DNA of 31,040 nucleotides, taken from a virus. Under the pieces are notes generated by a model. The model did no database searches. It had not been told where the DNA came from and saw nothing but the letters and a program-made list of their open reading frames with translations. Both the position numbers and the translations under genes were made by a program. This document shows, one piece after another, positions 24,756 to 28,109 of the stretch. The stretch spans positions 1 through 31,040 of IMG/VR virus record IMGVR_UViG_3300010885_029427; one strand, given 5' to 3'. Every line of letters begins with the position of its first letter. The stretch's first letter is position 1.

Positions 24756-24977
24756 TCAGGAATAGAGCTGGAGTTCGGCATCTTTGCCGTAGCGGGCATA
24801 GAGATCCGCCGCGTATTCGGCGGAGATCGTGCGGGTCGTCAAGACCCTGCCGGATTGAGTGCGGGCTTCGGAGAACCACCAGCCAGGGCCGTGCATCTCA
24901 CTGCGGCGGAAATGGACCCAGGCGGATTGGCTCGGAACGAATACGCTCCAGGCGTAGACACTAGCGAGTTGTGGCAT
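24756..24977 (-). CDS. Hypothetical protein (73 aa)
   Basis: From ATG 24977: MPQLASVYAWSVFVPSQSAW then HFRRSEMHGPGWWFSEARTQ and ISAEYAADLYARYGKD. Tryptophan-rich and beta-like at the N-terminus, helical at the end. The frame is open to 25151, but that part overlaps the upstream gene and looks like its shadow. It overlaps the upstream gene by 17 bases. Confidence 0.6.
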   Translation of the reverse strand: MPQLASVYAWSVFVPSQSAWVHFRRSEMHGPGWWFSEARTQSGRVLTTRTISAEYAADLYARYGKDAELQLYS

Positions 24978-25197
24978 GACTTTTTCCTGAACCGGTGAGT
25001 CTGAGGCGGCGAGAGAGTTCATCGGCATAAGTGAACGCTTGATCTGCGTAATACCCTTCGCGGACGGGGTTAAACCCACGGAGGTTTTCCGCCACTTGGC
25101 GGCAGTCGCGGATAATGAAGCGGAGCGATCCGAGATCACAAGTCGCCGCATGGCTCCGCCAACGGGCGAAGTCCTGGGGGGTGGCGTATTCGATCAT
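24961..25197 (-). CDS. Hypothetical protein (78 aa)
   Basis: MIEYATPQDFARWRSHAATC then GSLRFIIRDCRQVAENLRGF and YADQAFTYADELSRRLRL. This helical pattern, with D-C-R-x-A...YYxDxAxTYxxEL, recurs in small phage and cyanophage proteins. The start shares ATGA with the upstream gene. Confidence 0.7.
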   Translation of the reverse strand: MIEYATPQDFARWRSHAATCDLGSLRFIIRDCRQVAENLRGFNPVREGYYADQAFTYADELSRRLRLTGSGKSHATTR

Positions 25198-25521: not shown

Positions 25522-25549
25522 CGGGCAGAGCCCGGTGGTAGTTGGACAG
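25522..25549 (-). promoter_or_regulatory. Conserved leader element with hairpin, upstream of 25511 gene
   Basis: CTGTCCAACTACCACC (25549-25534) followed by a CGGGC-TCT-GCCCG hairpin (25534-25522), then ATG at 25511. It starts directly after the ncRNA terminator and has the same element-plus-hairpin order as at 21783. Confidence 0.6.
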
Positions 25550-25569
25550 AAAATGCCCCCGAAGGGGCA
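25550..25569 (-). terminator. Intrinsic terminator of the ncRNA
   Basis: On the minus strand TGCCCC-TTCG-GGGGCA is followed by TTTTC: a perfect 6-bp stem with a UUCG tetraloop and a short T run. Confidence 0.75.
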
Positions 25570-25623
25570 ATACGACATAGGGGGAATTGAACCACGGCTT
25601 GCGCCGTCCCGTAGGGCCCATAC

Positions 25624-25655
25624 GAAAAGCCCACCCCGTAACAACGGAGTGGGCT
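25624..25655 (-). terminator. Strong hairpin followed by TTTT inside the ncRNA 3' domain
   Basis: The arms AGCCCACTCCGT and ACGGGGTGGGCT pair with one G-T pair around TGTT, followed by TTTTC. It has the form of an intrinsic terminator. It also forms one branch of the domain closed by CGACATA/TATGTCG, so it may be structural, or an alternative 3' end. Confidence 0.45.
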
Positions 25656-26240
25656 AATCGCGCCTTGCCTAGCTTGCGCTAGGTATGTCGAAAGATTTTT
25701 TCGTTGTTTGACCTCAGGCCAACGAATTGAACCATAATACCTACATCCGTCGCATAACCCTGACGGTAGGGAGCCCTTGCGGGAGTGGGGCCATGTAGGA
25801 GCGCCCCGTATCTAAGCAGCAGGAGGCCCAACCCCCCTGAGAAGTGTGCGTAGGGCCTGACAACCCCCGGTAGCACACCGCATACCTGCTTGCACTGTGA
25901 GCCCGGTCCCTCTGCACGAGGATCCTGCTTGCTAACGACGGGATCTGGCTCTCACCGGCCTCCCCATCTAACGCACACTACTGCCCCCTCCGGTAATCCG
26001 GTGCTACTAGAAACCTCACCCCCATCAGCCGACATGAAAGTCGGGAGGGATTATCGGCCCGTTCGCCGCGCTTGCTCAGGATGATACCTGGCCGCCGGGA
26101 TTTGAACGTGCGCCACTACAGCCCATCAAAGGTCCGTAGCTCACAGCTATAGCTCCAGGGTCGGCCTGGCCCGCCGCGCATGATCGGATGCGCTATTTAT
26201 GGTCAGTTCACATAGGCGGTCGGTTCGGGAATGTGAAAGT

Positions 26241-26269
26241 AGTATGGCATGGATTGGCGGATCCGTCAA
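26241..26269 (-). promoter_or_regulatory. ncRNA promoter P3 (nearest)
   Basis: TTGACG (26269-26264), 17 bases, CATACT (26246-26241). Same GGATCCGCC spacer start as P1. Predicted start near 26234. Confidence 0.6.
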
Positions 26270-26363: not shown

Positions 26364-26393
26364 AACCTACCACGGGATGGGCGGGATCGTCAA
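26364..26393 (-). promoter_or_regulatory. ncRNA promoter P2
   Basis: TTGACG (26393-26388), 18 bases, TAGGTT (26369-26364). The -10 box is the same as at 17435 and 30936. Confidence 0.6.
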
Positions 26394-26461: not shown

Positions 26462-26490
26462 AGTCTACCACAGATCGGCGGATCCGTCAA
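26462..26490 (-). promoter_or_regulatory. ncRNA promoter P1 (farthest)
   Basis: TTGACG (26490-26485), 17 bases, TAGACT (26467-26462). TTGACGGATCCGCC is shared word for word with P3. The stretch 26270-26590 outside these boxes holds further GGATCC strings, a GAGTCT/AGACTC hairpin (26499-26515) and an A/T-rich leader before the plus-strand gene; I see no protein gene there. Confidence 0.6.
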
Positions 26491-26591: not shown

Positions 26592-27185
26592 ATGCTTTCA
26601 GGGCATCTGATTCCTGAACCGGTGACCGAGCAGCTCTGTTTGAACCTGGGTGATGTCCCTGTAACCGTTGGGGGTCGAGTACCCAAGCCGATCCCGGAGG
26701 TAGTGTTGGAGCTATTCAGACTCTCATCTACCTCCCCGTCTGGTCTGGTGTGGGTTCATGATCGACCTCATAAGAGAACAAAAGCCGGTGACCCAGTTAT
26801 TGGTAGCTTGATCAACAACAAATATAGATTGGTTCATGTTCCAGGGCATGGGCCTCACTACGCCCATCGAATCGTTTACTTCCTACAGACAAAAGAGAAC
26901 CCAGGTCACATGGTTGTGAGGCATTTAGCCGATGGAGACTTGGTACTAGGTTACCAAAGTGACAACTTACGAGATTCGCAAGGGATACTTAAAAAGCCTA
27001 AGGAAGGGTACAAGACTTGTAGAATGTATGAATACAAAGGTGATACCTTCAATCTTACTCGCTTGTGCAAACGGTTAGAGTTGGACTACATGCGAATATA
27101 CCAAATGACACGAAAAGGTAGAGACATTAGAGAAGTATTGGCAGAGCATGGCTTTGCCGATGTGAAGCTACTATTTACTCCCTGA
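26592..27185 (+). CDS. HNH-like (homing-endonuclease-derived) protein with degenerate motif (197 aa)
   Basis: This is the only plus-strand gene. The segment SGLVWVHDRPHKRTKAGDPV, then YAHRIVYFLQTKENPGHMVV, matches the N-terminal part of cyanophage HNH proteins ('SGLxWK...KAGDxAGSL...YKAHRIVYFLHxG'). Where the family has V-D-H-x-x-G-x-x-x-x-N...NLR, this protein has VRHLADGD and YQSDNLRD. The D before H is R, and an expected Asn is absent, so nuclease activity is doubtful. The C-terminal LTRLCKRLELDYMRIYQMTR resembles the HTH found after HNH domains. The gene is visibly A/T-richer than its neighbours and converges on the sigma gene with a 15-base overlap, so it looks like an acquired element. 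Confidence 0.65.
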   Translation: MLSGHLIPEPVTEQLCLNLGDVPVTVGGRVPKPIPEVVLELFRLSSTSPSGLVWVHDRPHKRTKAGDPVIGSLINNKYRLVHVPGHGPHYAHRIVYFLQTKENPGHMVVRHLADGDLVLGYQSDNLRDSQGILKKPKEGYKTCRMYEYKGDTFNLTRLCKRLELDYMRIYQMTRKGRDIREVLAEHGFADVKLLFTP

Positions 27186-28109
27186 CATCTGCAGCCTCTC
27201 CATTTCAATCCTTAAATTATCCCTCCCTGACTTCAGCAACTGCCCGATCCTCGACTTGCTCAACTGCATATCGCTCGCTACCTCTTGCAGCCCCTTCTCT
27301 TTGACAACAATCTCCTCCAGCACATACCTCTCCTTCTCCGGCAGGCGCCGCATCGCGGCGGAGATCATCCGATGCTCTGCCGAAGGCAGGGCCAAGACGG
27401 GAGCTTCGCCGGGAGAGAGGGGGTCGAAGGGGGTGAAAGAGGAGGGAGGAGCGAAGCTGAAGCCGTCGTCCTCGGGGGAATCCACCGCCGGGATCAGCTC
27501 AATCAAGTTACTGCCTCCTTCGATGCCGGGGCGGTCGAGGCTTGCGGCCTCCGTCATGGCGTAGACCTGGCCGATCAGAAGCATGCGCTCAGGGCTGATC
27601 TTGGCGTAGGCGGCCAGCTCCTCCAGCGTGGGCTTCCGGCCTGTCCTTGACTGCATCTCCTGGCTGTACCGCTGAACCTTATTCAGCGTTTCGTAGTGGC
27701 CGATGGGAAGGCGGATGGTCCGCCCTTGGTTGTGTAGGGCTCTGGTGATGCCCTGGCGGATCCACCAATAGGCATAAGTGGAGATGCGGTAGCCGCGAGC
27801 CGGGTCGTAAAGCTCCAGGCCGCGAACCAGGCCGATGTTTCCTTCTTGTATAAGGTCGGAGAACTCCAACCCCTTGTGCTGAAACTTCTTCGCAATGGAG
27901 ACCACCATTCGTAGGTTGGTGTTCACCATCGCTTTCATGCTGTGGCGCCCCCGCCGCTCTACCGTCTGCTTTGAGGCTGTCTGTTCATGATACGAAAGTG
28001 GGTGCATCCATTCATGAATGCGGCGGCAGTGGAGAAGTTGAGCTTCCTCGCAAAGGATTGGGTACTTACCCACTTCCTGCATATAGCTGTGAAGTTCAGC
28101 ATTAGCCAT
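27171..28109 (-). CDS. Sigma-70 family RNA polymerase sigma factor (phage-encoded)
   Basis: This 312-aa protein has region 1.2 (SYMQEVGKYPIL, residues 8-19), region 2 with DLIQEGNIGL (85-94) and region 2.3/2.4 STYAYWWIRQGITRAL (110-125). It also has RTIRLPIGHYETLNK (130-144), region 3 (about 136-178) and region 4 with HTH LQEVASDMQLSKSRIGQLLK (about 274-293). The 'STYAYWWIRQGITRA' wording is typical of cyanobacterial group 1/2 sigmas. Between regions 3 and 4 is a Pro/Ser-rich insert (PPSSFTPFDPLSPGEAP). It probably redirects host RNA polymerase to phage promoters; candidates are the TAGGTT-type boxes seen here. Few phages carry such a complete sigma-70. Confidence 0.93.
   Translation of the reverse strand: MANAELHSYMQEVGKYPILCEEAQLLHCRRIHEWMHPLSYHEQTASKQTVERRGRHSMKAMVNTNLRMVVSIAKKFQHKGLEFSDLIQEGNIGLVRGLELYDPARGYRISTYAYWWIRQGITRALHNQGRTIRLPIGHYETLNKVQRYSQEMQSRTGRKPTLEELAAYAKISPERMLLIGQVYAMTEAASLDRPGIEGGSNLIELIPAVDSPEDDGFSFAPPSSFTPFDPLSPGEAPVLALPSAEHRMISAAMRRLPEKERYVLEEIVVKEKGLQEVASDMQLSKSRIGQLLKSGRDNLRIEMERLQMSGSK

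Follow-up and report, generated by a model that had tools for sequence, protein, structure and literature searches.

A predicted multi-domain RNA with a tRNA-like 3′ module and exchangeable cores at the head of a phage early gene block

What lies between the sigma-factor gene and the early genes of the phage recorded as IMGVR_UViG_3300010885_029427, and how might it act? The window, by which we mean the whole 31-kb IMG/VR virus record analysed here (31,040 nucleotides), was examined on its minus strand in this region. The original prediction placed there a large structured non-coding RNA with promoters of its own, and both conserved gene order and covariation of paired positions now back that proposal. 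We are confident that a structured RNA family exists at this position, and the sequence comparisons predict an RNA of about 690 nt with several domains, placed where the early gene block of this cyanobacterial phage begins. Coordinates of the features are collected in Table 1.

An RNA locus between a sigma-factor gene and the early genes

Portal, terminase, ThyX and sigma-factor genes are found in the window. For the terminase the nearest counterparts come from phages of Cylindrospermopsis and Nodularia (28-31% identity), and among cultured phages the small early protein p78 occurs in cyanophages S-SRM01 and S-2L only, which together make a cyanobacterial host likely. The phage is also represented by a 71.7-kb contig (L107, IMGVR_UViG_3300027746_000020), which matches both the p78 gene and the 700-nt RNA region at 100%. 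The early genes run from 25511 downwards, on the other side of the RNA region from the sigma gene. Relatives were gathered by sigma protein first and by p78 second, giving about 40 non-identical, syntenic IMG/VR phage contigs that carry a homologous or an analogous RNA locus, with the sigma gene followed by the tandem promoters, the RNA and the early genes (p78). A region homologous to that of the window is present in L129 and L132 (88%), L126, L174, L119, L124, L148, L150, L151 and L189; identity to L129 is 83% over the aligned RNA (656 columns), and L126 is a more distant relative than L129. BLASTN against 50,697 cultured-phage records and 72,556 plasmids found no relative of the RNA, the sole match being a chance one of 75 nt.

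The HNH-family gene next to the promoters has no homologue at the same place in L129 and L126. A ACATATACATTTTT-like stretch is located after the sigma gene (window or relatives' upstream regions). The hairpin CTGACA-CCTA-TGTCAG (25520-25505) encloses the start codon of the window's first early gene, where relatives carry AGCTGTGA..TCAGCATG. Three more distant p78-bearing phages (L109, L112 and L115) are poor in open reading frames over about 1 kb ahead of p78, with GAACCTTGACAAT-like repeats in L109 and L112, and these regions are perhaps further RNA types. In the 2-aminoadenine phage S-2L (L248) the sigma gene is followed by a hypothetical gene, the terminator-like CCCCGGGCGTATTGCGTCCGGGG and p78 (unannotated there), the same order as in the RNA-bearing relatives. 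A link to S-2L was considered and rejected: the region contains a coding gene there and matches no RNA model, and absence of the adenylosuccinate synthetase domain (PF00709, PurZ family) from the RNA-bearing relatives also counts against it.

The tandem promoters of the original prediction proved to be three, with gaps of 97 and 124 nt in the window. By motif score alone they are not significant, the window yielding two promoters against 1.1 ± 1.1 expected; we accept them because their spacing is conserved, and not because of the consensus score. In most relatives a triplet of TTGAC type recurs, spaced by about 89-100 and 113-128 nt (99/128 in L174, 96/125 in L167, 92/124 in L165 and 89/125 in L168), and the sequence between the promoters differs although the spacing is kept. 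In most loci the first promoter is preceded by GAGTCTC/GAGACTC repeats (26515-26498 in the window), a possible operator.

Table 1. Positions of the predicted features, in window numbering and listed from the sigma gene towards p78.
Feature	Position	Strand	Basis or remark
Sigma gene	27171-28109		Upstream neighbour of the RNA region
HNH-endonuclease family gene (PHROG 99)	26592-27185	+	Divergent; between sigma gene and promoter array
Promoter P1, TTGACG-17-TAGACT	26462..26490	-	Motif scan; conserved spacing to P2 and P3
Promoter P2, TTGACG-18-TAGGTT	26364..26393	-	Under the strict scan threshold; position conserved
Promoter P3, TTGACG-17-CATACT	26241..26269	-	Closest to RNA; motif scan and conserved spacing
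Large structured non-coding RNA	25546..26234	-	Predicted start ~26234; homologues; no conserved frame
5′ hairpin GCGCAT/ATGCGC	26176..26193	-	5′ border of exchangeable core; sequence, L129 vs L122 swap border
Core hairpin CCAGG/CCTGG	26155..26169	-	Two-sided changes in 3/5 pairs
Core hairpin CCGAC-TTTCAT-GTCGG	26029..26044	-	2 two-sided pairs (TCGGC/GCCGA in L126)
Core helix GATGGG/CCCGTC, 25968-25963:25942-25937	25937..25968	-	Two-sided changes in 2 pairs
Core hairpin 25879-25873:25849-25843	25843..25879	-	2 two-sided pairs in L129; supplants long-range helix
Domain closed by helix 25799-25793:25746-25740	25740..25799	-	2 two-sided pairs in L129
tRNA-like cloverleaf	25573..25690	-	Model R1, 105.7 bits; covariation; fold
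Cloverleaf acceptor stem, 7 bp	25690-25684:25579-25573	-	
Cloverleaf D-like hairpin	25683-25668	-	
Cloverleaf CAAGGC linker	25667-25662	-	
Cloverleaf anticodon-like arm	25661-25622	-	Without anticodon
Hairpin-bearing insert in 5′ strand of T-stem	25594..25616	-	Alignments; shared only with L146
Cloverleaf T-arm loop TTCAATT	25591-25585	-	
3′ hairpin GCCCC-TTCG-GGGGC	25555..25568	-	TTTT behind hairpin in window only
p78 gene, small early protein	24961-25197		

Neither the window nor any of ten relatives contains a match to an Rfam family at the curated threshold, and when the RNA region and five other loci, with other core types among them, were scanned permissively, only chance matches appeared. 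GOLLD and ROOL had been named as candidate classes, with a new class as the alternative. Within eight phage records neither GOLLD (RF02032) nor ROOL (RF03087) matches at E up to 10, the former in a search without a GOLLD-carrying control and the latter with a control set that was likewise silent. The 71.7-kb contig of the phage holds no tRNA gene, contrary to the frequent association of GOLLD with tRNAs. Lacking a match at any threshold and a tRNA gene, and differing in architecture, the RNA does not bear out membership of either class; the new-class alternative is the better reading, and the RNA apparently belongs to an undescribed class distinct from both.

A tRNA-like cloverleaf and covarying core helices

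A multi-branch domain closed by CGACATA/TATGTCG was seen correctly in the original prediction, and it has a fold z of -5.2 in the window and, over eleven sequences, two-sided changes in 20 of 33 pairs; what was missed is that the domain has the form of a tRNA-like cloverleaf (TLS). A 7-bp acceptor is stacked on a 5-bp T-stem bearing a 7-nt T-loop, within a cloverleaf topology. The T-loop reads UUCAANU across relatives and the CAAGGC linker is invariant, the D-like hairpin varies in length, and the anticodon-like arm is built of 4 bp, a 3x3 internal loop and a further 10-11 bp. In relatives the fold z is -5.9 to -7.5, and each sequence on its own folds into the cloverleaf. A covariance model built from four sequences (R1) recovers eleven distinct TLS sequences at 69.9-122.1 bits, and because the window's TLS scores 105.7 bits on the minus strand against 22 on the plus strand, the RNA is assigned to the minus strand. 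Tested genomes that carry the TLS have one copy each, always at the RNA locus. Across the eleven sequences 98.9% of pairs hold, all seven acceptor pairs covary, none of 500 shuffles scores as high and six slides come nowhere near, in an alignment that was fitted to R1 and hence leans towards it. These pairs are also visible in the sequences before any fitting, where the acceptor appears as CGACATA/TATGTCG, CAACATA/TATGTTG, GCGACCA/TGGTCGC or GCGGCTA/TAGCTGC. Of three GTTCAA strings described as T-loop-like, the 3′ one is the loop of the T-arm and the other two are not conserved, that at ~26107 being ATTCAA in L129 and CTTAAA in L126 and that at ~25730 missing from L129.

The cloverleaf is recognised neither by ARAGORN nor by the Rfam tRNA model (RF00005), and CCA is not encoded. 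ARAGORN finds no tRNA or tmRNA in the RNA region; a tmRNA is further contradicted by the want of any Rfam match and by an acceptor that is local instead of joining the 5′ and 3′ ends of the RNA.

Upstream of the cloverleaf the alignment of all type A cores (the window's type, see below) is too divergent for a useful consensus fold, so helices were tested singly, and the counts of covarying pairs are modest, there being few distinct sequences. The 7-bp helix of the original prediction (25793-25799:25740-25746) is sustained, CCTACAT/ATGTAGG becoming CTTACAG/CTGTAAG. The hairpin at 26155-26169 takes the forms CCTGT/ACAGG, CCGGG/CCCGG, CCTGG/CCAGG and ACGGG/CCCGT in relatives, and the helix at 25968-25937 reads GATGGG/CCCATC in L129 and GGTGGA/TCCACC in L126. 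An 11-12 bp long-range helix (25842-25853:25968-25979) had also been proposed and is rejected on the covariation evidence. Its strands are complementary in the window, and in L129 the 3′ partner becomes ACACATACT with one pair lost uncompensated. Its 3′ strand (25854-25843) is shared with the local hairpin 25879-25843, which contradicts it by covarying from GGTGTGC/GCACACT to GGTATGT/ACATACT with all pairs kept in L129.

Could the region hold no RNA gene at all, being instead an unannotated coding sequence or a set of chance palindromes? Small open frames are present, and taken over its full 689 nt the sequence does not fold with unusual stability (z = -1.5). The longest open stretches of window and relatives do not correspond, however, and every frame is interrupted by 6-13 stops in the window and its homologues with no long frame in common, in agreement with the protein-free character first ascribed to the region. 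Two-sided changes are found in the cloverleaf, the 7-bp helix and the core hairpins, and in the TLS lie far above controls; covariation already refutes this explanation, which we hold to be extremely unlikely.

Constant flanks, exchangeable cores and two 3′ modules

A comparison of two phages brings out an organisation that the original prediction had not recognised, with the core as an exchangeable cassette. From the promoters through the 5′ hairpin L129 and L122 (IMGVR_UViG_3300034111_001063) are 95.1% identical over 639 nt, and beyond the core their identity is 97.8% across 134 nt that comprise the cloverleaf and the 3′ hairpin, whereas their cores (480 and 579 nt, respectively) have no detectable similarity. 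The core of L122 is of a type (B) common to many other loci and is itself structured, with 92.8% of pairs formed and two-sided changes in 37 of 136 pairs in an RNAalifold model. At least five core types, A (that of the window) to E, are told apart by profile searches, along with two 3′ modules. Of these modules, the cloverleaf combines with A and B cores. A pseudoknot module, which covaries and carries a conserved hairpin terminator, combines with A, B, C and D cores and stands in place of the cloverleaf in most relatives. The core types are not wholly separate, because A and C share a hairpin with a TTTCAT loop followed by GGTGAGG..AGTAG. The comparisons thus show, at the level of sequence, a modular RNA with constant promoters and 5′ hairpin, an exchangeable core of 400-600 nt and one of two 3′ modules. 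A homing-type nuclease adjoining such a cassette might drive the core swaps.

Some type A loci (L231, L239 and L243) carry an extra hairpin cassette, CCTGCCGGTGTGGGCTAGTGC.., between RNA and terminator, and L008 is similar.

Possible modes of action and known systems

The two modules differ in how the RNA appears to end. At loci with the pseudoknot a strong hairpin followed by TCTTTT closes the RNA. At TLS loci the 3′ hairpin is conserved (GCCCC/GGGGC, GCTCC/GGAGC, GCTCGG/CCGAGC), which upholds the hairpin of the UUCG terminator first proposed; its TTTT tail is confined to the window and absent from the 10 other TLS loci. The lack of a U-run there, and of a strong sigma-70 promoter between the RNA and the first early genes before p78, is consistent with one early transcript split by the cloverleaf. 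RNase P and the tRNA 3′-end enzymes recognise acceptor/T-stem stacks and the T-loop, and it is because the cloverleaf offers a 12-bp stack of this kind with a T-loop that a processing role suggests itself.

The reading we prefer, whose truth as a whole we put at about even, is of a trans-acting early RNA freed by tRNA-style processing at the TLS. The three tandem promoters would fire early in infection and make the RNA in quantity; the cloverleaf would probably cut or cap it away from the downstream early mRNA in the manner of tRNA punctuation, the strong conserved terminator doing the separating in relatives without a cloverleaf; and the released core would work in trans as a stable RNA with a structural or decoy role. 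Since cores are swapped between near-identical phages, the partner of the core may vary among hosts or competing phages. We count in favour of this mechanism the covariation of TLS and core, the core swap, the structured type B core, the covarying pseudoknot, the promoter spacing, the missing U-run in 10 of 11 TLS loci and the single cloverleaf per genome at the same locus; the absence of an encoded CCA and the failure of ARAGORN and the Rfam tRNA model to detect the cloverleaf count against it. The 23-nt T-stem insert of the window could impair recognition by tRNA enzymes.

The chief rival arises from the same observations. Because no clear sigma-70 promoter precedes the early genes, the RNA, lying between them and the tandem promoters, could instead be a very long leader that acts in cis on the early operon, its fold gating polymerase past a terminator-like hairpin by processive antitermination or attenuation, and in most relatives a conserved pseudoknot does stand directly ahead of a conserved terminator and the first gene. 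Such a leader is a possibility to be taken seriously, if on balance doubtful: cores of 400-600 nt in at least five types on the same flanks are excessive for the control of one terminator, and TLS loci without a U-run have little terminator to control. Another explanation makes the cloverleaf a decoy or inhibitor of host tRNA machinery (RNase P, EF-Tu, a tRNA-modifying enzyme or a tRNA-cutting defence) with the core as its carrier. The invariant T-loop and CAAGGC linker, the 12-bp stack and an arm that, having no anticodon loop, makes decoding impossible would fit such a role; the system can do without the cloverleaf, however, since the pseudoknot module replaces it in most relatives, and these targets even taken jointly are very improbable. 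More tentatively, and well short of the even standing given to the trans-acting RNA, the locus may form a cassette system within one group of cyanobacterial phages: an early RNA slot made of tandem promoters, 5′ hairpin and a tRNA-like or pseudoknot 3′ cap, into which unrelated cores of different specificities would be exchanged by recombination as trans effectors, the cloverleaf being a signal for release or protection. The core swaps would then resemble the exchange of immunity or anti-defence genes in other phages.

Transfer RNA-like 3′ ends are known on other long RNAs, including the tRNA-like domain of tmRNA, MALAT1/mascRNA and the TLS of plant viruses. Like them, the RNA described here is long and carries at its 3′ end an acceptor stem and a T-arm with its T-loop, other elements standing in for the D and anticodon arms. 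It differs from them in the 10-11 bp hairpin that forms its anticodon arm and in having no encoded CCA, and from tmRNA in that the whole cloverleaf is local, whereas tmRNA assembles its own from its two ends. The HK022 put RNA and similar elements are cis-acting antiterminator leaders in phages; likeness to these lies in the early-leader position and in a structured RNA preceding a terminator, whereas the present RNA is about ten times longer, has an exchangeable core and gives no indication of acting on polymerase.

The closest parallels in scale are GOLLD and ROOL, which form RNA-only cages and whose function is in both cases unknown (PMC12286853). GOLLD, too, is a large and ornate RNA of phages, in many cases longer than 800 nt, that is conserved in its 3′ portion and variable in its 5′ portion; in the present RNA a cloverleaf or a pseudoknot makes up the constant 3′ part, and the missing model match and tRNA gene set the two apart. 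ROOL is also a phage-encoded, highly structured non-coding RNA of about 600 nt without a known protein partner, but its description lacks exchangeable cores and a tRNA-like end (PMC12286853), and its model finds no match here. GOLLD assembles as a 14-mer cage and ROOL as a closed homo-oligomeric nanocage. By analogy the present RNA too might be a self-assembling cage or scaffold unrelated to them in sequence. Its size, ornate fold and phage origin would suit this, as would the fact that GOLLD and ROOL are mutually unrelated in sequence and yet both form cages (PMC12286853). With neither a sequence or structure match nor a tRNA gene in the 71.7-kb contig, we think a cage unlikely, more so than a cis-acting leader.

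Large ornate phage RNAs are a known kind, and it is the combination of a tRNA-like 3′ module with exchangeable cores that appears to be new, none having been described in the literature searched. No description of this RNA was found there either, subscription journals and bioRxiv lying outside the search, and the chance that it merits a separate class is a real one. For years no function has been assigned to large phage RNAs such as GOLLD and ROOL, and the locus adds a further, apparently undescribed class with a fixed genomic slot. The cloverleaf yields a concrete biochemical prediction, that the RNA would be cleaved by RNase P and tRNA 3′-end enzymes. Core swaps between near-identical phages are natural experiments that set different RNAs in the same background, and they make the role of large phage RNAs directly testable.
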